From positions 310,001 through 374,000 of the forward strand of contig NZ_JAGDYL010000001.1 of the NCBI RefSeq assembly GCF_017565705.1: a stretch of 64,000 nt of DNA. Reading direction: 5' to 3'. Of the stretch, positions 46,726 to 59,062 are shown piece after piece. Position 1 is the stretch's first letter. Every line of letters starts with the position of its first letter. The notes under the pieces are model-generated. The model made no database searches. It was not told the origin of the DNA and saw only the letters and a list, made by a program, of their open reading frames with translations. The stretch is from Leucobacter ruminantium (GTDB taxonomy: Bacteria > Actinomycetota > Actinomycetes > Actinomycetales > Microbacteriaceae). Both the position numbers and the translations under genes were made by a program.

Positions 46726-47670
46726 TCAATACGGGATGTCGAGCGCGAGGAAGGCGTCGAACTCCGCGTCCTCGGGGATCTTGACGTCACCCTCGGGAAC
46801 CTCGTCGTTCGCAGCGTAGTCGAGCCTGCACGACGCCGTGAACGCCCCGTTCGCGGGCACGTCGGGCCAGTCGGAGCAGACGGCGAAGATCTCGTCGTCG
46901 ACATAGCCGACGATGTAGAGGTACGGGTACTGCACCGCCTGGCTGAGCGACGAGGTGAACTCTCCCTCGACGTATCCGCTGTCGCTTCCCGCAAAACCAT
47001 CCACCGCGATCCCTCCGGTCATCGCCGGGGTCGCGAATTCGAGCGAGGTCTGCTCGATCTTGATCATCTCCGCCGCGAGCATGTCGCTCGAGATGATGCC
47101 TTTGAAGATCGACTGCTGCTCGGGCAGCAGGTACATGCTCGCCGGGTTGCGCCCGATGACGCGACCATCCGCGTCGTAGGCCGTCAGATCGAAGAAGACC
47201 TCGGCCGCCTGCTCGGCATCCTCATTGGTCACGTGGGAGTAGAGCGCCAGAAGCCCCTGCGAGTCGGGGGCGGTTCTGACGAACTCCGAGAACGAGATGT
47301 CCGAGACGATCACCAGTTCGAGATCCCCGAGAGTCTGAGTCGTTCCGACGTCGAGGTCGGCCAGTTCCTTCTCCGCCGCGGCGAGAGCGGTGTCCGCCTT
47401 CGCACGCTCGTTCCACAGCCATGCGGCGGCACCGCCGAAGCCGATCGTCGCGAGCAGCAGCACGCCGCAGGCGACGGCCAGCCCGATCACCAGGGGGGAC
47501 GCGCCCCGCTTGCGCACGATCGGAGCGGGCACGCTCGCCTCATCGAGATGGGGGGCGACCGGCCCCCCGTGAACCGGGGTGCCTTGTTCGCCGGGGGCTC
47601 GGCCGCCCGGCTCGCCGGCGCCCTGAGCGCTGTAACCACCGTAATCGCCCTGAGGCTCGGAACCCGTCAT
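46726..47670 (-). CDS. Membrane-anchored hypothetical protein
   Basis: This 314-residue protein has a Gly/Pro-rich cytoplasmic N-terminus (1-55, GDYGGYSAQGAGEPGG), one transmembrane helix at about 59-85 (SPLVIGLAVACGVLLLATIGF), a short coiled segment (about 90-105), and an extracellular beta-rich domain (110-314) with two cysteines (AVCSDW, ASCRLDY). The layout is that of actinobacterial DUF4352/FxLYD-type surface proteins (YSHVTNEDAEQAAEVFFDLTAYD resembles an FxLYD strand), but I cannot assign it firmly. It stands alone, convergent with ssrA. Confidence 0.75.
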   Translation of the reverse strand: MTGSEPQGDYGGYSAQGAGEPGGRAPGEQGTPVHGGPVAPHLDEASVPAPIVRKRGASPLVIGLAVACGVLLLATIGFGGAAAWLWNERAKADTALAAAEKELADLDVGTTQTLGDLELVIVSDISFSEFVRTAPDSQGLLALYSHVTNEDAEQAAEVFFDLTAYDADGRVIGRNPASMYLLPEQQSIFKGIISSDMLAAEMIKIEQTSLEFATPAMTGGIAVDGFAGSDSGYVEGEFTSSLSQAVQYPYLYIVGYVDDEIFAVCSDWPDVPANGAFTASCRLDYAANDEVPEGDVKIPEDAEFDAFLALDIPY

Positions 47671-47787: not shown

Positions 47788-48546
47788 CTAGATCGCCATC
47801 TCGCCGGATTCGAGACGCTGCTTGACGAGGCTGAGGAAGCGGCCGGCGTCGGCCCCGTCGATCAGGCGGTGGTCGTAGCTCAGTGAGAGATACATCATGC
47901 TCCGCACCTCGACGACCTCGCCGCGCTCGGGATCCTGCACCGCCACCGGTCGGCGCACGATCGCGCCGGTGCCGAGGATCGCGGCCTGCGGCTGGTTGAT
48001 GATCGGCGTGTCGATCAGCGTACCGACCGAGCCGTAGTTCGTGACGGTGAAGGTGCCGCCCGAGAGGTCTTCGAGCCCGACCTTTCCGGTGCGCGAGCGC
48101 TCCGCGAGGTCGCCGATGCTCCGGGCGAGTTCGGCGACCCCCATCGTCCCGGCGTCCTTGATCACCGGCACCAGCAGGCCCCTCGGGGTATCGACGGCGA
48201 CGCCGATGTGCTCCCCGTCGGGGTAGCGGATGAGCCCCGCGTCGAGGTCGATCGTCGCGTTCATCTTCGGGTGGGCCTGCAGCGCCTCCACCGCAGCCCT
48301 GATGATGAAGGGCAGGTAGCTCAGACCGACACCCTCGCGCTCGCGAAATGCGTCCTTCTCCTGCGCCCGGTAGGCGGAGATCGCACTGAGATCGACCTCC
48401 ACCGTGGCGGTGAGCTGCGCGGACCCCTGGAGGGATTCCGTCATGCGCCTGGCGATGGTCGCCCGGATGCGGGTGACCTTCTCGGTAGTGCCGTAGAGGG
48501 CTTCGGCGGGCGTAGCGCCCTCGTGCGGAGCGGAGTGGGTGTTCAT
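47788..48546 (-). CDS. Stand-alone 2-oxo acid dehydrogenase E2 catalytic core (no lipoyl or E1/E3-binding domain)
   Basis: This 252-residue protein corresponds only to the acyltransferase core of dihydrolipoamide acyltransferases. It starts at [13 protein letters not shown], continues through [20 protein letters not shown] and [14 protein letters not shown], and ends with the active-site motif [16 protein letters not shown] (His226, Asp230). Normal E2 proteins carry one to three lipoyl domains plus a peripheral-subunit-binding domain before this core; here only about 20 extra residues precede it. It may use the free lipoyl protein at 55036-55263. It is divergent from an AEC transporter gene. 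Confidence 0.9.
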
Positions 48547-48664: not shown

Positions 48665-49648
48665 ATGCTTGAAGTGATACCGACCATCGCGCCGCTCTTC
48701 GTGCTCCTCGGCGTCGGCATGGCGGCCGGATTCTCGCAGCGCTTCCGCAGCGCCCAAGCGGGACTCAACGCGTTCGTCTTCACCTTCTCGCTGCCGGCGT
48801 TCCTCTTCACCGCGCTCTCCAAGGCTCCGATCGCCGAGGGCATTCCCCTGCCGTTCGTCGTCGTCTCGTTCGCGCTGCCCGGGGCCGTCGCCCTCGTCGT
48901 CTACGCCGCCGCGCTCATCCGGCGGCGCTCCTCGCGCGGCGACTCGGGGCCGATTCTCGCGGGGCCCCTGGCGGTCGCCGCCACCTACGGGAATGTGGGC
49001 TACCTCGGCGTGCCGATCGCGATGAGCATCGTCGGGCCGGGCGCCGCACTCGCTGCGGCGCTCGGACAGCTGCTCCACAACGTGCTGTTCATGGTGGGGT
49101 ACCCGCTGCTCAAATCGATCGGCAGCGGCGCGCCGGCAGCGGGCTCGGCGCTCAGCCGTCTGCTCTCGGTGCTCTGGACCGTGCTGAAGCGCTCGGTGCT
49201 GCTCAACCCCGTGGTGCTCGGCGTCGTCGCCGGCGTGCTCGCGGGCGCCCTGCCCGTCGAGATCCCCGAGGTGATCGACGCGAGCATCACGATGCTCGGA
49301 CAGGCGGCGGTTCCCGCGGCGATGTTCGCGGTCGGTCTCTCGATCAAACCCGCCTTCGAAGGAATGCGGTCCGGGAGCGTGCCCCTCGGAGCCGTCCTGC
49401 TCGCCTCAGCTGTGAAGCTCCTGGCGCTGCCCCTGCTGACGATACTGGCGCTACTCCCTCTCGGCGGATCCCTCGCACCCGAGTGGGTCGCGACGGCGGT
49501 GATCATGGCCGCCGTGCCCGTCTCCTCCACCGCGAGCATCATCGTCTTCGAGTACGACGGGGACACCCGGCTCACGAGTGCGACGACCCTGCTCACGAGC
49601 GTCGCCGCGATCGTCACGGTGCCGCTGATGATCGCGCTCACCCCCTGA
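48665..49648 (+). CDS. AEC-family transporter (auxin efflux carrier-like)
   Basis: This 327-residue membrane protein has about ten predicted helices in two halves, with the AEC signatures [31 protein letters not shown] and the C-terminal [16 protein letters not shown]. Bacterial members export or import dicarboxylates and related acids (for example MdcF, malonate). It is close to the TRAP cluster on the same strand, so it may handle a related carboxylate. The substrate is not determinable here. Confidence 0.9.
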
Positions 49649-50026: not shown

Positions 50027-51049
50027 ATGAACTTGAAGAAGAAAACCACCCTCGTCGCAGCGGCCATCGCCGCTTCGGCTCTCGCCCTCACCGCGTGCTC
50101 CGGCGGCGCCTCCGGCGGCAGCGGCGCAGACGGCGAGACCTACAACTGGGACATGACGATCACCGTCTCCGAGACCTCGACCTGGTGGGCCGGCGCCGAG
50201 AAGTTCGCGGAACTGCTCGACGAGAAGTCCGACGGTCGCATGACCCTCAACCTCTTCGCGAACGAGCAGCTCTCGGGCGGCGACCCCGCGGCCGGAGTCG
50301 AGATGCTCGCCAACGGTGACAAGGCCTTCTCCTACAACTCCCCCATCATCTACTCGGGCATCGACCCCCGCTTCTCGGCGATCACCGCACCCTTCCTGTA
50401 CGCCGACTACGAGCAGGCCGACGCCGCGATCGAGGGCGGGGCCGCAGAGGCCTACGAGGGCCTCACCGAGGAGATGGGCATCAAGATGCTCGGCTTCGGC
50501 GAATCGGGCTTCCGCCAGATCACGAACAGCAAGCACGAGATCGTCGAGCCCGCCGACGTCAAGGGGCTCAAGCTGCGCGTCGCCGGCTCCGACCTCTTCC
50601 TCGACATCTACAAGGAGCTGGGCGCCGACCCCGTCTCCATGAACTTCGCCGAGGTCTTCACCTCGCTGCAGACCGGCGCCATCGACGGCCAGGAGAACCC
50701 CTTCGACGTCATCTACTCGAACGGGCTCATGGAGGTGCAGGACTACCTCACCGTGTGGAACTACGTCTACGACCCGCTGATCCTCGGCATGAACCTCGAG
50801 CAGTACGAGAGCCTGAGCGACGAGGACAAGAAGATCGTCGACGAGGCCGCTGCGGAGGCGAACGAGTACCAGATCAACCTCAGCCGCGAGCGCGAGGCCG
50901 AGCAGCTCGCCGAGATGCAGGACCAGATGACGGTCACCGAGCTCACGCCCGAGCAGCTCGAAGCGTTCCGCGATGCCATGCAGCCGGTGTACGAGAAGTA
51001 CACCGACAAGTGGACCCCCGAGCTCGCCGAAGCGGTCCAGCCGAAGTAG
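50027..51049 (+). CDS. TRAP transporter solute-binding lipoprotein (DctP family)
   Basis: This 340-residue exported lipoprotein has a basic start (MNLKKK), a hydrophobic signal and the lipobox LTAC, so it is anchored outside the membrane. The DctP fold shows LKLRVAGSDLFLDIYKELGADP, where the Arg normally salt-bridges a substrate carboxylate, and FTSLQTGAIDGQENPFDVI. The substrate is therefore probably an organic acid. The SD lies only 2-3 nt from the ATG; a TTG two codons later has ideal spacing and could be the true start. It is first in the P-Q-M transporter genes. Confidence 0.93.
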   Translation: MNLKKKTTLVAAAIAASALALTACSGGASGGSGADGETYNWDMTITVSETSTWWAGAEKFAELLDEKSDGRMTLNLFANEQLSGGDPAAGVEMLANGDKAFSYNSPIIYSGIDPRFSAITAPFLYADYEQADAAIEGGAAEAYEGLTEEMGIKMLGFGESGFRQITNSKHEIVEPADVKGLKLRVAGSDLFLDIYKELGADPVSMNFAEVFTSLQTGAIDGQENPFDVIYSNGLMEVQDYLTVWNYVYDPLILGMNLEQYESLSDEDKKIVDEAAAEANEYQINLSREREAEQLAEMQDQMTVTELTPEQLEAFRDAMQPVYEKYTDKWTPELAEAVQPK

Positions 51050-51063
51050 TCCGACTCCGCCGC

Positions 51064-51093
51064 GGAGGGCGGTGCCGACAGGCCCCGCCCTCC
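51064..51093 (+). terminator. Intercistronic hairpin between P and Q genes
   Basis: GGAGGGCGG / CCGCCCTCC arms enclose a 12-nt loop in the 62-bp P-Q gap. Its likely role is partial termination or 3'-end protection, so that the binding protein is made in excess over the membrane subunits, as is common for solute-binding protein genes. Confidence 0.6.
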
Positions 51094-51111
51094 CGAGAGT
51101 TCGAAACGCTC

Positions 51112-51708
51112 ATGTTCGATCTGATCCTGCGCAGGCTCGAGAACACGATCATCGCGGTCACCTTCCTGTTCATCACGCTGTTGGCCTTCGCCAACGTGGT
51201 GGCGCGATACGTCTTCCATGCCTCTTTCTCGTTCACCAGCGAGTTGCTCGTCAACCTCGCTGTGCTGCTGACCATGGTCGGCGCCTCCGCCGCGACGCGG
51301 CTCGGCACCCACCCCAGCTTCAGCCTGCTCCGCGACTCCACCCGCGGAGCCCTCCACAAGCTCATCATCGTGGTGGTCTGCCTCGCGATGCTGGCCTTCT
51401 ACGCGGTCTTCCTCTGGCTCGGGTGGGACACCGCCATGAAGCAGTTCGAATCCGGCCGCCTGACCCCGGCCCTGCAACTGCCGCAGGGGCTCTTCTCGCT
51501 CGCGCTGCCCCTCGGCGCGCTGCTCGGCACGATCCGCACCATCCAGGTGGCCGTCATCGAGCTGCGCGGCGGCGAGGCGTTCAAGGGCGAGGAGGCCGAA
51601 GCGCTCGAAGCAGTGGCGGTCATGCAGGCCGTCGAGCAGCCCACCGACGCGTCGCAGAGCGACGATCCCGTAGACACGACCGACACGAAGGCAGGTGACC
51701 GCTCATGA
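51112..51708 (+). CDS. TRAP transporter small permease (DctQ family)
   Basis: This 198-residue protein has four predicted helices: about 10-33, 45-67 (with WARYVF-like ANVVARYVFHASFSFTSEL), 88-110 and 128-150. The rest is a 45-residue acidic cytoplasmic tail (GEEAEALEAVAVMQAVEQP...) that is longer than usual. It pairs with DctM to form the sodium-driven permease. The stop codon overlaps the start of the large permease gene (ATGA). Confidence 0.92.
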   Translation: MFDLILRRLENTIIAVTFLFITLLAFANVVARYVFHASFSFTSELLVNLAVLLTMVGASAATRLGTHPSFSLLRDSTRGALHKLIIVVVCLAMLAFYAVFLWLGWDTAMKQFESGRLTPALQLPQGLFSLALPLGALLGTIRTIQVAVIELRGGEAFKGEEAEALEAVAVMQAVEQPTDASQSDDPVDTTDTKAGDRS

Positions 51709-53183
51709 TCGAGCTCGTACTCTTCGGCACCTTCCTGGTCTGCCTGTTCATCGGCGTGCCGATCGCGATGTCGATGGGACTCTCGGCGTTCGCCACGATC
51801 ATCTACGCGAGCGGTTTCAAGGCGCTCGCTCCCGCATCGGCGATCCTCTACGCGGGCATGTCCTCCGAGACTCTGCTCGCGATCCCGTTCTTCATCCTCG
51901 CAGGCGTCATCATGGAGCTCACCGGCATATCGAAGAGACTGGTCGAACTCGCCGACGCCGCCTTCGGGCACATGAAGAACGGCATCGCCCTCACGACGAT
52001 CCTCGTCGCTCTCGTGTTCTCCTCCATCTCGGGGTCCGGTCCCGCGACGGTCGCCGCGATCGGCGGCATCCTGATCCCCGCGCTCGCCAAGCACGGCTAC
52101 ACGAAGCGGCACGCCGCCTCGCTCGTCGCGACCTCGGGCGAGCTCGGCATCATCCTGCCCCCGAGCATCGCCTACATCGTGTTCGCGGTGGTCGCGGCCG
52201 ACTACGCCGGCCCGGGGGTCGATCGCGTCACCATCGGCCGCCTCTTCATGGCGGGCGTCGTGCCCGGTCTCATCCTCGTCGTGGTGCTCTACATCATCGC
52301 CCGCTTCCTGCCCCGCGACATGGAGCTCGCGAAGGCGAACGCGGCGGCGCATCTCAGCTCGGCGATGGGCAAGAGCCCGCGCACCAGGGGTGCCACGGTC
52401 ACCGCGACGGGCGCCGTCGCGAACACCTCGGACAACACCGGCCTGCTCACGATCGACGAGGTGACCCCCGAGAACGCGGCCGCGGGCGGCGGTATCGGCA
52501 TGCGCACCAAGCGCGCACCGGCCTCCGTCGTGCTCAAGGCGTTCGCACGGGCGATCCCCGGCCTGCTCGTGCCCGTGATCATCCTCGGCGGCATCTACGG
52601 CGGCATCTTCACGCCGACCGAGTCGGCCGCGGTGGCGTCGGTCTACGCCCTCGTCGTCGGCCTCGTCTCGCGCGAGCTGAAGCTCGGATCCCTGTTCAAG
52701 ATCTTCACCTCGGCCGGCGTCATGTCGGGCCGCATCATGCTGATCATCGCGTCGGCGACCCTGTTCGCCTACGTCATCACGCGCAACCAGATCGCACGGC
52801 ACGTCGCCGACTGGATGCTCAACCTGACCGACAGCATGGTGCTGCTCGTGCTGATCATCAACCTGGCGCTGCTGATCGCGGGCATGTTCATGGACGCCAT
52901 CTCGGCGTTCTACCTCTTCATCCCGCTCTTCGTGCCGGTACTGCTCGAATTGGGCATGGATCTCACGACGATCGGCGTCATGATGACGATGAACCTCGCG
53001 ATCGGCCTCATCACGCCGCCGGTGGGCATCGACCTCTTCGTGGCGGCGAGCATCGCCAAGATTCCGTTCGGAGAGGCCGTGAGAGGCATCGCGCCGTTCG
53101 TCGTATCGGGCGTCGCCGTGCTCATGCTCGTCACCTTCATCCCGGCGCTGAGCAACTGGCTGCCCGACCTGCTCGGCCTCTGA
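51705..53183 (+). CDS. TRAP transporter large permease (DctM family) with loop insertion
   Basis: This 492-residue membrane subunit has about 12 helices. Family segments are ISGSGPATVAAIGGILIPAL, SGELGIILPPSIAYIVF, TPTESAAVASVYALVVG and NLAIGLITPPVGIDLFVAA. Most DctM proteins are about 425-440 residues; here about 55 extra residues (roughly 208-265, MGKSPRTRGATVTATG...IDEVTPENAAAGGG) form a polar, Thr/Ala/Gly-rich cytoplasmic insertion between two helices. The insertion keeps frame and composition. Confidence 0.93.
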   Translation: MIELVLFGTFLVCLFIGVPIAMSMGLSAFATIIYASGFKALAPASAILYAGMSSETLLAIPFFILAGVIMELTGISKRLVELADAAFGHMKNGIALTTILVALVFSSISGSGPATVAAIGGILIPALAKHGYTKRHAASLVATSGELGIILPPSIAYIVFAVVAADYAGPGVDRVTIGRLFMAGVVPGLILVVVLYIIARFLPRDMELAKANAAAHLSSAMGKSPRTRGATVTATGAVANTSDNTGLLTIDEVTPENAAAGGGIGMRTKRAPASVVLKAFARAIPGLLVPVIILGGIYGGIFTPTESAAVASVYALVVGLVSRELKLGSLFKIFTSAGVMSGRIMLIIASATLFAYVITRNQIARHVADWMLNLTDSMVLLVLIINLALLIAGMFMDAISAFYLFIPLFVPVLLELGMDLTTIGVMMTMNLAIGLITPPVGIDLFVAASIAKIPFGEAVRGIAPFVVSGVAVLMLVTFIPALSNWLPDLLGL

Positions 53184-53202
53184 GCCGGGAAAGGACCCTC
53201 AC

Positions 53203-53970
53203 ATGTCACAGGAACTCTCCGGCAAGGTCAGCGTCGTCACCGGCGCCGCCGGCGGTATCGGCGCGGCCATCGCGCGCGAGCTCGCCGCCCGCGGATCGGA
53301 CGTGCTGATCATCGACGTCACCGACGGCGCGCAGACCGTCGAGTCCATCCTGACGCAGACGGGCGGTTCGGTGCGTGCGCGCAGCGAGATCGTCGACATC
53401 AGGGATCGCGACGCGGTGCGCGCGTGCCTCGACGGCCTGGTCGCCGACTGGGGATCCCTCGACGTGCTCGTGAACAACGCGGGCACCGCGGGTCGCCTCA
53501 GTCTCGAGGACATGACCGATGAGATCTGGGATCGGGACATCGAGACCAACCTCAAGGGCACCTTCCTCATGACCCAGTGCGCGGTCTACCCGCACATGCG
53601 GGCCGCAGGATCGGGCGCGATCGTCAACGTGAGCTCGATCTCCGGGATCATCGGCGGAGCGAACTCCGGCGGCGACGGCGCGGCGCGCACCGGCCCGGCC
53701 TACGCCGCGTCGAAGGGCGGGGTCATCGCCTTCACCAGGTGGGTGGCGAAGGAGGTGGGGCCGCTCGGCATCACCTGCAACACCGTCGCCCCCGGCCCGG
53801 TCGAGACGCCGATGACGCAGGGCGTGCCCTATCCCGTCGAGGCCCAGCCGATCCAGCGCATCGGACAGCCCGAGGACATCGCGTCCGCGGTGGCGTTCCT
53901 CGCCTCTCCCGGAGCGAGCTACATCACGGGCGAGACCCTCAAGGTGTGCGGGGGTACGGCTATCGGCTGA
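53203..53970 (+). CDS. SDR-family dehydrogenase in the TRAP cluster
   Basis: This 255-residue classical SDR has TGAAGGIG at 13-20, NNAG at 91-94, catalytic Ser in NVSSISG and Tyr167/Lys171 in YAASKGG, then PGPVETPMTQ. The Asp after strand 2 (IIDVT) suggests NAD. It starts 19 bp after the large permease gene with GGGAAAGG upstream, so it is in the transporter operon. It probably oxidises the hydroxyl of the imported compound. A strong hairpin follows. Confidence 0.93.
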   Translation: MSQELSGKVSVVTGAAGGIGAAIARELAARGSDVLIIDVTDGAQTVESILTQTGGSVRARSEIVDIRDRDAVRACLDGLVADWGSLDVLVNNAGTAGRLSLEDMTDEIWDRDIETNLKGTFLMTQCAVYPHMRAAGSGAIVNVSSISGIIGGANSGGDGAARTGPAYAASKGGVIAFTRWVAKEVGPLGITCNTVAPGPVETPMTQGVPYPVEAQPIQRIGQPEDIASAVAFLASPGASYITGETLKVCGGTAIG

Positions 53971-53992
53971 TCCCTCGCCGCACACCCCCTTC

Positions 53993-54025
53993 GCCTGTGC
54001 GCTCCCCACCCCGGAGCGCACAGGC
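53993..54025 (+). terminator. Hairpin between the SDR and PPC genes
   Basis: Perfect 13-bp arms GCCTGTGCGCTCC / GGAGCGCACAGGC enclose a 7-nt loop. No T run follows. It may separate the transporter/SDR message from the PPC-lipoyl-E1 message, or stabilise it after processing. Confidence 0.65.
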
Positions 54026-54093
54026 GCCGCCCCCAACAGGGGCGCCGGGAAGAACTCCCACCTCTCGAAGTCACAAGCTGATAGGAGGCTGCG

Positions 54094-54969
54094 ATGCGAC
54101 CGCTGGTACATCCAGGCCCGAAGACCCAACCGAGAATCATCTCCGTTCCGGTGCGCACTGAGCGCGCGATCTGCGAGCTGCAGCCCGGACGCCCCCTCGC
54201 CGAGCAGTTGCACGAGACGCTGTCGCAGCTCGGCTCCGACAGCGGGTTCGCCGAGATCCACGGCGGCGACTACTCACCGCTGAGCTACTGCGTGCCCGAC
54301 GTCGCGACCGCGGAGAAAGCGCTCAGCTTCTCCGAGACCCGCGGGCACGACACCGCCCACCTCGTCTACGGCTCGGTCACGCTCGGCCTGCGCGAGGGAT
54401 CGCCCTACATGCACAGCCACTGCTGCTGGCAGGCGGCGGACGGCGCCCTCGAGGGCGGGCACGTCTGGCTCGAGACCGAGCCGGGATCCCCTCCCCCGTT
54501 CGCCGTCGTCACCGCCGTCCACGGGGCGCGGTGGAACAGCGCGACCGACCCGGAAACCCAGATGCCGGTGTTCACGCCGACGGAACGGAGTATCGACATG
54601 CCCGATCACGAGACCCTGCAGCCCGACACTGTGATCGCCCGCGTGCTGCCGGGAGAGGACATCACGGAGGCACTGCTCGAGGTCTGCCGCGAGGCCGGCT
54701 TCGAGCGGGCGACGGTGCGCGCCGGGCTGGGCAGCTTCGTCGGCGCGACCTTCGTCGACCGCGCGAGCGGCGAGCACCGCACCGCCGACGGACCGGCGAC
54801 CGAGGTGATCGCGCTCATCGGCGACGTGCGCACCGTCGACGGAGAACCCGAGACGCGGCTCAGCTGCACGCTCGTCGACCGCCACGGCGTCGTCCACGCC
54901 GGCGAGCTCGTGCCCGGCGAGAACCCGGTCGCCGCGACGTTCGAGCTCACCGTGCAGCGCATCGGCTGA
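54094..54969 (+). CDS. Tandem PPC (DUF296) domain protein
   Basis: This 291-residue protein appears to hold two PPC/DUF296 modules, about 18-145 and 168-290. The first has the metal-site-like PYMHSHCCWQ (about 109-118); the second has RATVRAGLGSFVGATFVDR and TEVIALIGDV, typical of the PPC core. It lacks the AT-hook found in plant PPC proteins, so DNA binding is not implied. AGGAGG precedes the start. It is placed between an SDR and the lipoyl/E1 genes, which suggests a metabolic role with the dehydrogenase. Function unknown. Confidence 0.8.
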   Translation: MRPLVHPGPKTQPRIISVPVRTERAICELQPGRPLAEQLHETLSQLGSDSGFAEIHGGDYSPLSYCVPDVATAEKALSFSETRGHDTAHLVYGSVTLGLREGSPYMHSHCCWQAADGALEGGHVWLETEPGSPPPFAVVTAVHGARWNSATDPETQMPVFTPTERSIDMPDHETLQPDTVIARVLPGEDITEALLEVCREAGFERATVRAGLGSFVGATFVDRASGEHRTADGPATEVIALIGDVRTVDGEPETRLSCTLVDRHGVVHAGELVPGENPVAATFELTVQRIG

Positions 54970-55035
54970 CCGCCCGCCGCGCACCACCGCACCCGACCAG
55001 ATCAGAGAACCCCACCCAACCGAAGGAGAACCACC

Positions 55036-55263
55036 ATGGACGTCAACCTCACCCAGGACCTGCTCGGCGAAGAGACCGAGGCCGACATGGGCGAGTGGCT
55101 CGTCGAAGACGGCGCGACCGTCGCCGAGGGCCAGGTCATCGGTTCGATCGAGACCTCCAAGCTCGTGAACGAGCTCGTCGCGCCGGCTGCCGGCGTGATC
55201 TCGCTCAAGAAGGAGGCCGGCGACCTCGTCGAGCTCGACGAGACCCTCGCCACCATCGACTAG
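55036..55263 (+). CDS. Free-standing lipoyl (biotinyl/lipoyl) carrier protein
   Basis: This 75-residue protein is a single complete lipoyl domain. The hairpin carries the modification site Lys42 in IETSKLVNELVAP, with flanking WLVEDGATVAEGQ and AGDLVELDETL. In most 2-oxo acid dehydrogenases this domain is the N-terminal part of E2; here it ends after the domain and no acyltransferase follows. It lies 8 bp before E1 alpha, behind GAAGGAG. Biotinylation is unlikely because the site lacks the MKM motif. Confidence 0.92.
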   Translation: MDVNLTQDLLGEETEADMGEWLVEDGATVAEGQVIGSIETSKLVNELVAPAAGVISLKKEAGDLVELDETLATID

Positions 55264-55271
55264 GGAGCACC

Positions 55272-56252
55272 ATGACTCAGTATCAAGCAGCAGAACAGGG
55301 CCTCGCGGGCCTGAAACTCATGGCGAAGATCCGCGAGTTCGAGCGCCGCATGCCCCTCCTCTCGGACGAGGGACTCATCCGAGGCTCGACCCACCCGTCG
55401 CTGGGCATGGAGGCGATCGCCGTCGGCGTCTCGCTCGCGCTCACCGACGAGGACGCGATCGCGAGCACGCATCGCGGACACGCGCACACGCTCGCCAAGG
55501 GCGCCGATTTCGGGCGCACCATGGCCGAGATCCTCGGCCGCTCCACCGGCTACTGCGGCGGCAAGGGCGGTTCGATGCACATCGGCGCCAAGGAGATCGG
55601 CGTGCTCGGCACCAACGGCATCGTCGGCGCAGGGATCGGTCTCGCGACCGGCGCGGCGCTCGCCTCGAAGCAGAAGGGCGACGGCACCGTCGCCGTCTCC
55701 TACTTCGGCGACGGCGCGTCCAACCAGGGCGTGCTCGCCGAGGCGTTCAACCTCGCGGCCATCTGGAAGCTCCCGGTCATCTTCGTGCTCGAGAACAACC
55801 ACTACGCGCAGTCGGCGTCCATCGACGACATGGTGGCCCAGACCGATCTGAGCCGGCGCGGCGAGGCCTACGGCGTGCCGTCCTTCAACGGCAACGGCAT
55901 GGACCTGCAGGAGGTGTTCGAGCTCGCCACCGCGGCGGTCGAGCGGGCCCGTGCGGGAGAGGGCCCGAGCTTCCTCGTGCTCGACACCTACCGCTACCTC
56001 GGCCACATGGCCGGGGACACCGAGATCTACCGCAGCGCCGACGAGGTGGAGGCTGCGAAGGGCAACGACCCCATTCAGAAGCTGCTCGCCCAGCTCATCG
56101 AGCAGGGCGTCATCACCGCAGAGGAGTGGGAGGCCACCACCGGGGAGATCTTCGCGGAGGTCGAGGCCGCGGAGCAGTTCGCCCGCAACTCGCCCTACCC
56201 GGAGGTCGCCGAGGCCTTCACCGATGTCTACGCGAAGGGAGCGAACGCATGA
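55272..56252 (+). CDS. TPP-dependent dehydrogenase E1 alpha subunit (acetoin/pyruvate type)
   Basis: This 326-residue subunit has the Mg-TPP motif from GDG (146-148) to NN (175-176), SYFGDGASNQGVLAEAFN. THRGHAHTLAKG and GRSTGYCGGKGGSMHIG are typical of acetoin and pyruvate dehydrogenase alpha subunits. Its length is nearer to acetoin dehydrogenase (AcoA) than to branched-chain E1. With E1 beta it would decarboxylate or cleave the substrate and reductively acylate the adjacent lipoyl protein. The stop codon overlaps the E1 beta start (ATGA). Confidence 0.93.
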   Translation: MTQYQAAEQGLAGLKLMAKIREFERRMPLLSDEGLIRGSTHPSLGMEAIAVGVSLALTDEDAIASTHRGHAHTLAKGADFGRTMAEILGRSTGYCGGKGGSMHIGAKEIGVLGTNGIVGAGIGLATGAALASKQKGDGTVAVSYFGDGASNQGVLAEAFNLAAIWKLPVIFVLENNHYAQSASIDDMVAQTDLSRRGEAYGVPSFNGNGMDLQEVFELATAAVERARAGEGPSFLVLDTYRYLGHMAGDTEIYRSADEVEAAKGNDPIQKLLAQLIEQGVITAEEWEATTGEIFAEVEAAEQFARNSPYPEVAEAFTDVYAKGANA

Positions 56253-57238
56253 ACGCGGAGACGAAGGACATGGTGACGTGGCGCGCGCTGAACGCGGCGA
56301 TGCACGACATCATGGAGACGCTGCCCGAGTCGTTCGTGCTCGGCGAGGACATCACCACCTGGGGCACGGGAGGCGGCACCTACGGCGTCACCCGCGGTCT
56401 GAAGAAGAAGTTCGGCGCGGATCGCGTGCTCGACACCCCGATCAGCGAGGAGGTGCTGCTCTCCGCGGTGTCCGCGGCAGCGGCACGCGGCACCCGGCCG
56501 ATCCTCGAGATCATGTATTCCGACTTCTCCTTCCTGGGCTTCGACGGCATCATCAACCAGGCGGCGAAGGCGCGCTACATGTTCGGCGGCCAGTTCGACA
56601 CCCCCCTCGTGATCCGCAGCAACGGCGGTTCGGGCATCGGCAAGGCGGCCCAGCACTCGCAGTCGCTCGAGACGCTGTTCGCCCACATCCCGGGCCTCGA
56701 GGTGGTGGTGCCGGGCACGCCAGGCGACGCCTACGGTCTGCTGCGCACGGCGGCGCTCTCCGACAACCCGACGATCTTCCTGGAGCACAAGAACCAGTAC
56801 TACGATCGCGGACCCGTCGGCCGAGAGCCGATCCCCTTCGGTCAGGCGCGCATCGCCCGGGAAGGCGCGCACGCCACGGTCGTGGCGACGCAGCAGATCC
56901 TCGCCTACTCCCTGCAGGCAGCCGAGGAGCTGGCAGCGGAGGGCATCGAGATCGAGGTCGTCGACCCGCGCACGCTCTACCCGTTCGACATGGACGCCGT
57001 GTACGCGTCGGTCGGCAAGACCCGCCACCTCGTGGTCGGACACGAGGCCGTGCGCGACTACGGCTGGGGCGCCGAGTTCGTCGCCCAGACGGTCGAGGCC
57101 GCGTGGGACAAGCTCGACGCCGCCCCGGTGCGCGTCGGCGGCGCGCGCACGCCGATCCCCTATTCGCAGCCGCTCGAGGAGGCTGTGATCCCGTCGAAGG
57201 ACGACATCGTCCGGGCGGTCAAGCGCACCCTCGCCTAG
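56249..57238 (+). CDS. TPP-dependent dehydrogenase E1 beta subunit
   Basis: This 329-residue subunit has the pyrimidine-binding domain (LGEDITTWGTGGGTYGVTRGL, DTPISEEVLLSAVSAAAARGTRPI) and the transketolase C-terminal domain (about 195-325; EVVDPRTLYPFD, GHEAVRDYGWGAEF). GIGKAAQHSQSLETLFAHIPG is the family signature. It forms the alpha2beta2 E1 with the preceding protein. A dispersed-repeat hairpin of about 115 bp follows before the next gene. Confidence 0.93.
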   Translation: MNAETKDMVTWRALNAAMHDIMETLPESFVLGEDITTWGTGGGTYGVTRGLKKKFGADRVLDTPISEEVLLSAVSAAAARGTRPILEIMYSDFSFLGFDGIINQAAKARYMFGGQFDTPLVIRSNGGSGIGKAAQHSQSLETLFAHIPGLEVVVPGTPGDAYGLLRTAALSDNPTIFLEHKNQYYDRGPVGREPIPFGQARIAREGAHATVVATQQILAYSLQAAEELAAEGIEIEVVDPRTLYPFDMDAVYASVGKTRHLVVGHEAVRDYGWGAEFVAQTVEAAWDKLDAAPVRVGGARTPIPYSQPLEEAVIPSKDDIVRAVKRTLA

Positions 57239-57269
57239 GAGCCGCGCGGAGCGAGGCGGAGCCCTCTCC

Positions 57270-57385
57270 CGCTGGTTGAGCGAGGAGCTTGCGACGAGTC
57301 GAAACCGAGCAGCGGTTCCTCGATTTCGATACTTCGACTCGTCGTTGCGCTCCTCGCTCAGCACGGCGCTCGCTCGATCAGCGGA
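57270..57385. repeat. Dispersed repeat, long inverted pair between E1 beta and SDR genes
   Basis: GCTGGTTGAGCGAGGAGCTT plus GCGACGAGTCGAAAC is mirrored by TTTCGATACTTCGACTCG plus TTGCGCTCCTCGCTCAGC, with GATCAGCGG at the far end matching CCGCTGGT. The hairpin can span nearly the whole E1 beta-SDR gap, so it may shape 3' ends inside the operon. Confidence 0.85.
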
Positions 57386-57413
57386 ACCACACACATCACG
57401 AGAAAGGCCCCCC

Positions 57414-58244
57414 ATGAACCGGCTCCAGAACAAGACCTGCCTGATCTTCGGCGGCGGCTCCGTCGGAGGCGAGATCACGAACGGTCTCGCGGCGGCGATC
57501 GTCTACGTCCGCGAGGGCGCGAACGTCGCGATCGTAGACCTGAGCGAGGACGCGGTGCGCGACGGGCTGAGCCGGATCCGCACGGAGTGCGAGGCGCCTG
57601 GCATCGACGAGCGGCTGCTCGGCGTCGTCGGCGATGCGACCGAGGACGCATCGGTGCGAAACGCGGTCGAGCGGACCGTCGCTCGCTTCGGCCGCATCGA
57701 CGTGCTGCACAACAACGTCGGCATCGCCCGCATGGGCGGCCCCGTCGAGCAATCGATCGACGAGTGGAACCTCGTGATGAACGTCAACCTCACGAGCATG
57801 TTCCTCAGCTGCAAGCACGTGCTGCCCGTGATGCTCGAGCAGGGTTCGGGCAGTATCGTCAACATCGGCTCGATCGGCGGCATGCGCTACATCGGATACA
57901 ACTACCCCAGCTACTCGGCGAGCAAGGGGGCGGTGACCCAGTTCACGCAGAACCTCGCGCTCGAGTACGCATCGCGCGGCATCCGCGCGAACACGATCGC
58001 CCCCGGCTACATCAACACCCCGATGATCTACCGCCAGATCAGTTCGGCCTACGAGACGGTCGAGGAGATGGTCGCCGCGCGCGACGCGCTCTCCCCGACC
58101 GGCAAGATGGGCGACTCCTTCGACGTCGCGAACGCCGCTCTGTTCCTGGCGTCCGACGAGTCGCGCTACGTCAACGGCATATGCCTGCCCGTCGACGGCG
58201 GCCTCGTGCAGAGCGCGGCGCCGCCCTCGGCCGACCGCTCGTGA
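57414..58244 (+). CDS. SDR-family dehydrogenase with unusual cofactor loop
   Basis: This 276-residue SDR has catalytic Tyr167/Lys171 (SYSASKGAV) and PGYINTPMIY, but the cofactor loop reads FGGGSVGGEITNG (12-24) in place of TGxxxGIG, with Val at the sixth position and about five extra residues before the helix. NNVG (100-103) replaces NNAG. It starts after GAGAAAGG. It ends the gene run of the TRAP/E1 cluster and faces the GntR gene. Substrate unknown. Confidence 0.9.
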   Translation: MNRLQNKTCLIFGGGSVGGEITNGLAAAIVYVREGANVAIVDLSEDAVRDGLSRIRTECEAPGIDERLLGVVGDATEDASVRNAVERTVARFGRIDVLHNNVGIARMGGPVEQSIDEWNLVMNVNLTSMFLSCKHVLPVMLEQGSGSIVNIGSIGGMRYIGYNYPSYSASKGAVTQFTQNLALEYASRGIRANTIAPGYINTPMIYRQISSAYETVEEMVAARDALSPTGKMGDSFDVANAALFLASDESRYVNGICLPVDGGLVQSAAPPSADRS

Positions 58245-58246
58245 GG

Positions 58247-58278
58247 GAGGAGGGATCCCGGCTCCGGGATCCCTCCTC
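58247..58278. terminator. Bidirectional terminator between SDR and GntR genes
   Basis: GAGGAGGGATCCCGG / CCGGGATCCCTCCTC are perfect 15-bp arms with almost no loop, placed between convergent genes. Both arms carry the AGGGATC word. Confidence 0.8.
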
Positions 58279-58327
58279 CTCATCCCGCGACCCGCGCCAG
58301 CAACTCTCGCCGCGCGGCCCGCGCTCC

Positions 58328-59062
58328 TCAGAGCTCGTCTGCGAGCTCCCGCTCCCGCAGCTCGCGCAGCCACTCGAAATGCGCGTCGATCGCGACCGTG
58401 GCGGCCTCGGCGTCGCGCGCCTCGACCGCGCGCAGCACGTCGGCGTGCACGCGGCGCATCGTACGGAAGTCGCGCTCGAGCGTCAGGTGCCGCAGGGTGC
58501 CCTGGAGCACTCCGTGCAGCATCTGCGAGAAGAACAGCAGCGCGGGCGAGGCCGATGCCGTGAACAGTGCCTTGTGGAACGCCCAGTCGGCGACGAGCAG
58601 CCCGTGTCCGTCCTCGGTGCTCTGCATGCTCTCGATGGCCGCTGCGATGGCGCCGAGCGCCTCGGGCGTCGCATTGCGGCACGCCTCGATCGCGGCCTGC
58701 CGTTCGAGGGCGTGGCGAACGGAGATCAGCGATTCGAAGGTCATCTGGTGGAACATGAGGCCGAGGATCAGCACGCTGCCCGCCTGCTCCGCCTGCAGCC
58801 CCGAGTAGAAGGTGCCCTGGCGTTCCTTGCGCGTCAGCACGCCGATCGACTCGAGCTTGCCGATGCGGTCGCGGAGGGTGTTCCGGCTGATGCTCAGCTG
58901 CTGCGTGAGCTCGCGCTCGCTGGGCAGCCGATCCCCGGGCTGCATGTCGACGAGCAGCCCGACGAGTGAGCCGAGCGCCGAATCGTTGAACAGGCTGGCG
59001 TAGAACTGGTGGTTCTTCAGCACTTCAGTCGAAACCAGCTTCTGCCGACCCAGCTCCTCCAT
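58328..59062 (-). CDS. GntR-family (FCD-type) regulator of the TRAP/E1 cluster
   Basis: This 244-residue regulator has a winged helix at about 25-90 (GDRLPSERELTQQLSISRNTLRDRIGKLESIGVL) and an FCD domain at about 105-235, with ligand/metal positions around DWAFHKALFTAS and RRVHADVLRAV...AIDAHFEWL. The start MEELGRQK has a GGTGG site upstream; longer versions are not supported. It ends the catabolic cluster and is the best candidate to bind the CTGGTTCTACCAG site before the TRAP genes. Upstream, 59063-59301 shows no feature. Confidence 0.93.
   Translation of the reverse strand: MEELGRQKLVSTEVLKNHQFYASLFNDSALGSLVGLLVDMQPGDRLPSERELTQQLSISRNTLRDRIGKLESIGVLTRKERQGTFYSGLQAEQAGSVLILGLMFHQMTFESLISVRHALERQAAIEACRNATPEALGAIAAAIESMQSTEDGHGLLVADWAFHKALFTASASPALLFFSQMLHGVLQGTLRHLTLERDFRTMRRVHADVLRAVEARDAEAATVAIDAHFEWLRELRERELADEL

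Follow-up and report, generated by a model that had tools for sequence, protein, structure and literature searches.

A stretch of 64,000 nucleotides of the genome of Leucobacter ruminantium (contig NZ_JAGDYL010000001.1, positions 310,001 to 374,000; referred to below as the window) carries a run of genes for a tripartite ATP-independent periplasmic (TRAP) transporter, two short-chain dehydrogenases (SDRs), a protein with two PPC (PCC/DUF296) domains in tandem, a free lipoyl carrier and the two subunits of a thiamine pyrophosphate (TPP)-binding E1 enzyme. A gene for the free catalytic core of an E2 acyltransferase lies nearby. Taken as a whole, this set is best explained as serving the catabolism of a small hydroxylated carboxylate, an explanation to which we give an even chance of being right. 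An earlier reading of the letters of the window, made without database searches (the original prediction), had named ten genes, from the TRAP binding protein to the FCD regulator, and all of them were found with the same order and coordinates. The predicted features of the region are as follows (coordinates are positions in the window):

47788–48546, minus strand: free E2 catalytic core, 252 amino acids (PF00198, E 1e-76, the sole Pfam match; motif DHRLIDG)
48665–49648, plus strand: AEC-type membrane transport protein, encoded divergently to the E2 core (PF03547, E 1e-23)
50027–51049, plus strand: DctP, TRAP solute-binding protein (PF03480, E 3.5e-79)
51112–51708, plus strand: DctQ, TRAP small permease (PF04290)
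51705–53183, plus strand: DctM, TRAP large permease (PF06808)
53203–53970, plus strand: SDR1, short-chain dehydrogenase (PF13561; motifs TGAAGGIG and YAASK)
53992–54026, plus strand: perfect 14-bp inverted repeat with a 7-nt loop between the SDR1 and PPC genes, without a T run (sequence inspection)
54094–54969, plus strand: tandem-PPC (PCC/DUF296) protein (PF03479; metal motif HSHCCWQAADGALEGGH at residues 107–123 and E154, both in the N-terminal domain)
55036–55263, plus strand: free single-domain lipoyl carrier, 75 amino acids (PF00364; Lys42 in ETSK)
55272–56252, plus strand: E1 alpha, TPP-binding (PF00676, E 6e-79; GDG...NN at 146)
56249–57238, plus strand: E1 beta (PF02779, PF02780)
57414–58244, plus strand: SDR2, short-chain dehydrogenase (PF13561; YSASK)
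58328–59062, minus strand: GntR/FCD protein, presumably the regulator of the module (PF07729, PF00392)

In textbook TPP-dependent dehydrogenase complexes, the lipoyl domain acts as a swinging arm and belongs to the same chain as the core. The Pfam analysis of the core and the carrier found no single E2 chain uniting a lipoyl, a subunit-binding and a core domain: neither a lipoyl nor a peripheral-subunit-binding domain was matched in the E2 core, and PF00364 was the only domain over the cut-off in the carrier, accompanied by a weak match to Biotin_lipoyl_2. The acyltransferase motif DHRLIDG (searched as DHRxxDG) is intact in the core, as is the attachment motif ETSK in the carrier. Judging by their sequences, the 75-residue lipoyl protein and the free core very probably represent a split E2, and we hold this assignment together with the existence of the module with high confidence. 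The view that E2 is missing was rejected when the free core was found (PF00198). The original prediction had let the 75-residue carrier alone stand for E2, and this does not hold, since the core at 47788–48546 lies outside the interval considered then and adjoins the module in nine of 11 genomes. Its gene is located about 1.5 kb upstream of the module, on the opposite strand and on the other side of the AEC-type permease gene; the start was set at the ATG at 48546, picked among several candidates. Among the NCBIfam models, the actinobacterial SucB one matches best, over its core region and under its cut-off, and the next relatives of the E2 core in module-bearing genomes are long-frame E2 proteins (about 47–54% identity; 47–55% genus-wide). 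The E2 core probably represents a stripped-down paralogue of the housekeeping E2. The absence of a local E3, pointed out earlier, was confirmed: the operon contains none, and the sole lipoamide dehydrogenase over the curated cut-off is encoded on contig C16, directly before the housekeeping E2. Two weaker paralogues, under the cut-off, are located elsewhere in the genome, and the only match in the window is weak (73 bits, about 40.9–41.6 kb).

The tandem-PPC protein was found at full score in eight of 54 genomes drawn from the genus (nine matched, and G604, with a partial match of 29%, was left out) and in four of 199 genomes of the family, own genome included (five matched, and G032, with 31% over one domain, was left out). 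The class draw gave at least 4/394 genomes, own included, a lower bound as only six first-look candidates per genome were scored, and a scan of a GTDB-based collection with two peptide patterns gave at least six loci. The E1-type module was read in 11 genomes: to the eight from the genus are added L028 (a contig of an uncultured Microbacterium), G121 and G051; the records L031 and L026, with contigs of equal length, were counted once, likewise L029 and L053, and L030 and L054. The three TRAP genes (P-Q-M), SDR1 and the PPC gene follow in identical order in all 11, and the order from TRAP P through SDR2 is identical in the nine genomes with spanning contigs, the contigs of the other two stopping within the PPC neighbourhood. 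The module is accompanied by the AEC gene in 11/11 genomes, by the E2 core in 9/11 and, at the same place, by the FCD gene in seven of the nine whose contigs reach it. The original prediction had proposed a co-occurrence search as a check, and the gene set turned out to be a conserved unit; a random neighbourhood is ruled out by the conserved gene order. At locus L050, the DctM matches fall in two frames, which points to sequencing errors or decay.

Close copies of the E2 core (at least 67% identity; genus scan with a cut-off of E 1e-60) occur in precisely the eight of 54 genus genomes holding the module; four of the 46 module-less genomes, all fragmented, gave zero E2 matches. The probability of this overlap by random draw is 1e-9; as the genes share one locus, the overlap speaks for joint gain and loss and not for independent events. 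The uncultured Microbacterium contig also carries a close copy of the core. The lipoyl carrier was detected in seven of the eight module genomes of the genus (the eighth contig stops before it), and a 49% partial match was found in G626. In G121 and G051, the genes on either side of the module look by eye like purM and purF; an E2 core is absent from the vicinity, and the closest match to the core outside the module is a long-frame E2 at 50%. Both genomes possess a second, distant run (L090:8915-15209 in G121, L091 in G051) of genes for a lipoyl carrier, E1 alpha, E1 beta, a free E2 core of 220 amino acids and an FCD protein, and this paralogous run supports the split E2 as an architecture. 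Neighbouring genes encode a family III CoA-transferase and an acyl-CoA dehydrogenase that by eye resembles glutaryl-CoA dehydrogenase, the families being checked in G121, and the run possibly encodes a split 2-oxoadipate dehydrogenase.

The TRAP P, Q and M components are all present by Pfam. The residues R163, R184 and N224 of DctP are 21 and 40 positions apart, just like R152, R173 and N213, which bind the carboxylate in 4P47 (PMC11668362). The nearest solved binding protein is 4p8b, both by sequence and by fold, and the predicted TRAP model is mediocre (pLDDT 71.8). The TRAP ligands listed in a review include 2-acetolactate and pantoate/D-erythronate (PMC5812351). Taken together, the sequence data suggest that the module imports a small hydroxylated carboxylate, and the carboxylate residues of the binding protein support the earlier idea of a coherent module for the catabolism of an organic acid.

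The E1 subunits contain PF00676 and PF02779/PF02780, together with the TPP-binding motif GDG-(x)-NN. The closest solved relative of E1 alpha is an E1 of the pyruvate dehydrogenase (PDH) type; among solved structures, E1 beta is about equally near to PDH E1 and to the Thermus 2-oxoacid E1 1um9. The phylogenetic tree of E1 alpha (34 rows, 32 of them different) placed the module sequences on a long stem (2.14) in a 19-row group with an Acinetobacter acetoin-type E1 and a second E1 of the own genome (support 90/94, not starred), with a warning of long-branch effects. The E1 substrate is thus not settled by the tree. The Acinetobacter aco-type operon encoding the acetoin dehydrogenase complex (L146), the genes of which were named by eye from open reading frames (ORFs) in a record without annotation there, resembles the module in having E1 alpha/beta (45% identity in E1 alpha), a lipoyl-bearing E2 and a nearby SDR. 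It differs in having one long E2 chain with a lipoyl domain, followed by an E3 gene and preceded by a lipoyl-synthase-like gene, and neither TRAP nor PPC genes were seen among the ORFs read.

GcvH is a single lipoyl protein not fused to E2, and neither GcvH nor the LbpA of Hdr-like sulfur oxidation is known to serve a TPP-dependent E1 with a free E2 core. LbpA, too, is described as a single lipoyl protein without an E2 fusion (PMC6067878). The original prediction knew of no pathway with exactly this composition, and a literature search of one open-access library likewise found none. Several other gene runs of related content were noticed. Outside the window, contig C13 of the own genome (L114:4950-12985) contains genes for an ATP-binding cassette (ABC) transporter, a TIM-barrel isomerase, an SDR, a free lipoyl protein, E1 beta, E1 alpha and another SDR, and L121 likewise encodes an SDR, a short lipoyl protein and E1. 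In the plasmid clusters L055–L059, genes for E1 alpha/beta and E2 accompany those for a sorbitol-type phosphotransferase system or a sugar ABC transporter, joined in four of five by one for an NAD(P)H-dependent oxidoreductase; the clusters possibly represent another acyloin pathway.

In the tandem-PPC protein, Pfam PCC matches residues 179–289 only, which is the C-terminal half. The tandem arrangement proposed originally was corroborated with hhalign, which aligned the N-terminal half of the family profile with its C-terminal half (90.9%, E 1e-6, 113 columns). The AF2 model of the protein is of high quality (pLDDT 90.1, pTM 0.88), and its top eight Foldseek matches are single-domain PPC structures (E 7e-8 to 6e-6). 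The module protein shares the domain fold with such proteins (3hwu, 2dt4 and 2h6l, the last being AF0104, titled metal-containing) but differs from them in having two domains per chain, the motif HxH...GGH in the first domain only, and a place in a catabolic cluster. Among the best 50 rows, the best-supported matches after the single PPC domains are acetolactate decarboxylases (BudA/AldC, PF03306): 6inc, 4bt3, 4bt2, 6inb and 6j92, with probabilities of 0.96, 0.95, 0.94, 0.90 and 0.85, respectively. All the other rows among the 42 beyond single PPC have a probability of 0.18 or less.

The residues H107, H109, H123 and E154 are invariant in 16/16 aligned rows. The three histidines of the motif HxH...GGH, presumably metal ligands, span 16 positions from first to last in the PPC protein (HSHCCWQAADGALEGGH) versus 13 in the decarboxylases; the motif lies in the N-terminal domain of the former and in the C-terminal half of the latter. 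It was also found in 13 of 16 cut actinobacterial acetolactate decarboxylase loci (L123–L138), a sharing that is partly circular, as the script selected for the motif: the 13 loci are those with HxH, GGH and a suitable frame, while nothing suitable came from L135, L137 or L138, and L139 was left out. A kinship at the sequence level was rejected after hhalign found none with whole profiles and halves, and no PF03306 match, only PCC, was obtained in the tandem-PPC protein; nor was PF03306 found anywhere in the own genome. The relation to the decarboxylases rests on fold and motif, since the profiles give no link. SCOP places both families in one superfamily. The fold evidence, derived from a predicted model, points weakly to an acetolactate-decarboxylase-like enzyme.

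Tandem-PPC genes also occur in a second type of cluster. Fifteen other loci were collected, of which ten come from the 64 plasmid records with a PPC match, the rest being L032, L033, L038, L039 and L040. With queries taken from L019 for the synthetase, thiolase and IclR, an acyl-CoA synthetase was found in 13/15 loci, and a thiolase, an IclR regulator and a TRAP transporter in 11/15 each; L016 and L040 possess none of the four. The 25% synthetase matches in L024 and L053 were taken for unrelated ligases. These clusters resemble the window module in having SDRs, the tandem PPC and mostly TRAP, and differ in carrying synthetase, thiolase and IclR genes where the module has lipoyl, E1, E2-core and FCD genes. 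No lipoyl, E1 or E2-core genes were detected in any of the 15 stretches, and no thiolase or IclR in any of the 11 E1-type ones, within the approximately 7–20 kb read at each of the 26 loci. The PPC locus of G458 is of the thiolase type, yet a PDH-type E1 alpha is encoded on a separate contig. According to NCBIfam, the thiolase belongs to PRK07516 and the synthetase to PRK07470 (that of L032 under the cut-off), and neither model names a substrate. The TRAP binding proteins of three actinobacterial loci (L032, L033 and L039) share 56–63% identity with DctP of the window, so their substrate is probably the same; in the plasmid loci the identity is 28–39%. The PPC and synthetase matches of L033 are split over two frames, as would result from sequencing errors or decay.

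It seems that two unlike solutions for forming acyl-CoA serve one pathway. The PPC protein probably belongs to the core of this pathway, as its genes are found again in other actinobacteria and in Pseudomonadota, where their neighbours include genes for TRAP transporters, SDRs, acyl-CoA synthetases and thiolases, and the earlier description of it as the filler of a remaining slot has to be abandoned for the same reason. In the proposed pathway, the TRAP system would take up a small hydroxy-carboxylate, and the SDRs would turn it into a 2-hydroxy-3-oxo acid of the acetolactate type; the oxidation of a dihydroxy acid would be the most economical chemistry. The tandem-PPC protein, as an acetolactate-decarboxylase-like metalloenzyme, would decarboxylate (or rearrange) the 2-hydroxy-3-oxo acid to an acyloin. 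E1 would then cleave the acyloin and load the acyl group onto the free lipoyl carrier, from which the free E2 core would pass it on to CoA, and the housekeeping E3 would reoxidise the carrier. Elsewhere, the acyl-CoA synthetase and thiolase would perform the acyl-CoA-forming cleavage instead. A 2-hydroxy-3-oxo acid qualifies as an acyloin as well as a beta-keto acid, which would leave it open to TPP-dependent cleavage or, once activated with CoA, to thiolysis. We regard the acetolactate/acyloin chemistry as tentative and somewhat doubtful.

Several observations weigh against this explanation. A decarboxylated acyloin would leave the synthetase of the thiolase type without a carboxylate, unless PPC catalyses a different step in those clusters or the substrate bears two carboxylates, so the thiolase-type clusters speak against the decarboxylation of a monocarboxylic substrate by PPC. 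The E2 core is encoded on the other strand with another gene between it and the module, and two of the 11 module genomes (G121 and G051) have no E2 core at the module. The E1 tree provides no firm tie of the module E1 to acetoin dehydrogenase. The Foldseek matches to the decarboxylases are weak (E 9.0e-3 to 8.4e-2, TM 0.26–0.33), the profile-profile comparison of PPC with acetolactate decarboxylase by hhalign gave 1.8% (17% for the best pair of halves), and PPC proteins in general typically carry the metal motif.

Alternatively, E1 might directly cleave the 2-hydroxy-3-oxo acid (or a 2-oxo acid), and PPC might be an upstream isomerase, racemase or hydrolase, alike in both cluster types. This would explain why PPC, SDR and mostly TRAP are retained while E1, lipoyl and E2 genes are swapped for synthetase and thiolase, and the double nature of the 2-hydroxy-3-oxo acid would suit either chemistry. 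The decarboxylase-like fold match lends a hydrolase no support, however, and we consider this scheme unlikely, though worth keeping in mind. It is improbable that an ordinary 2-oxoacid dehydrogenase, assembled from the E1, the carrier and the E2 core, acts on a 2-oxo acid made by the SDRs, with PPC as a regulator or DNA-binding protein. The best solved relatives of E1 are indeed of the PDH type, and several plasmid annotations present PPC proteins as "DNA-binding protein", but the PPC gene sits within a catabolic run beside enzymes, its putative metal residues are invariant, and separate FCD or IclR regulator genes are found near most loci; the role of a plain DNA-binding regulator was therefore held unlikely. 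It is very improbable that the E2 core has nothing to do with the module and that the carrier works with the housekeeping E2: the strand of the core, its place past the AEC gene and its absence at the module in G121 and G051 would fit, but close copies accompany the module in 8/8 genomes of the genus and on the uncultured Microbacterium contig versus 0/46 other genomes at E 1e-60, even if common descent of one locus explains a part of this.

Some further features of the region deserve mention. The cofactor loop of SDR2 is unusual, with GGGSVGGEITNG instead of TGxxxGxG, and the relatives in L032 and L033 look similar by eye. The inverted repeat at 53992–54026 may be a processing site or a partial terminator. 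Among seven other SDR1–PPC intergenic regions, repeats with arms of 11–16 nt and loops of 6–7 nt, differing in their letters, occur in four (L030, L051, L049 and L025); L050 has a loopless one, and L024 and L029 have none. A predicted protein at 46726–47670 gave zero Pfam matches at E 0.001.

The most far-reaching interpretation, in which tandem-PPC proteins are metal-dependent decarboxylases of a new family distantly related to acetolactate decarboxylase and are central to an undescribed hydroxy-acid pathway finished interchangeably by thiolase and acyl-CoA synthetase or by a TPP enzyme whose E2 is completely split (diffusible lipoyl carrier, free acyltransferase core, no binding domain), is in our estimate rather unlikely. 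If true, it would assign an enzymatic function to the PPC/DUF296 domain, the bacterial members of which are often annotated as DNA-binding. The need for a covalent arm could be tested with a conserved system in which carrier and core are both free, and a pathway present in two phyla, Actinomycetota and Pseudomonadota, would become directly testable.

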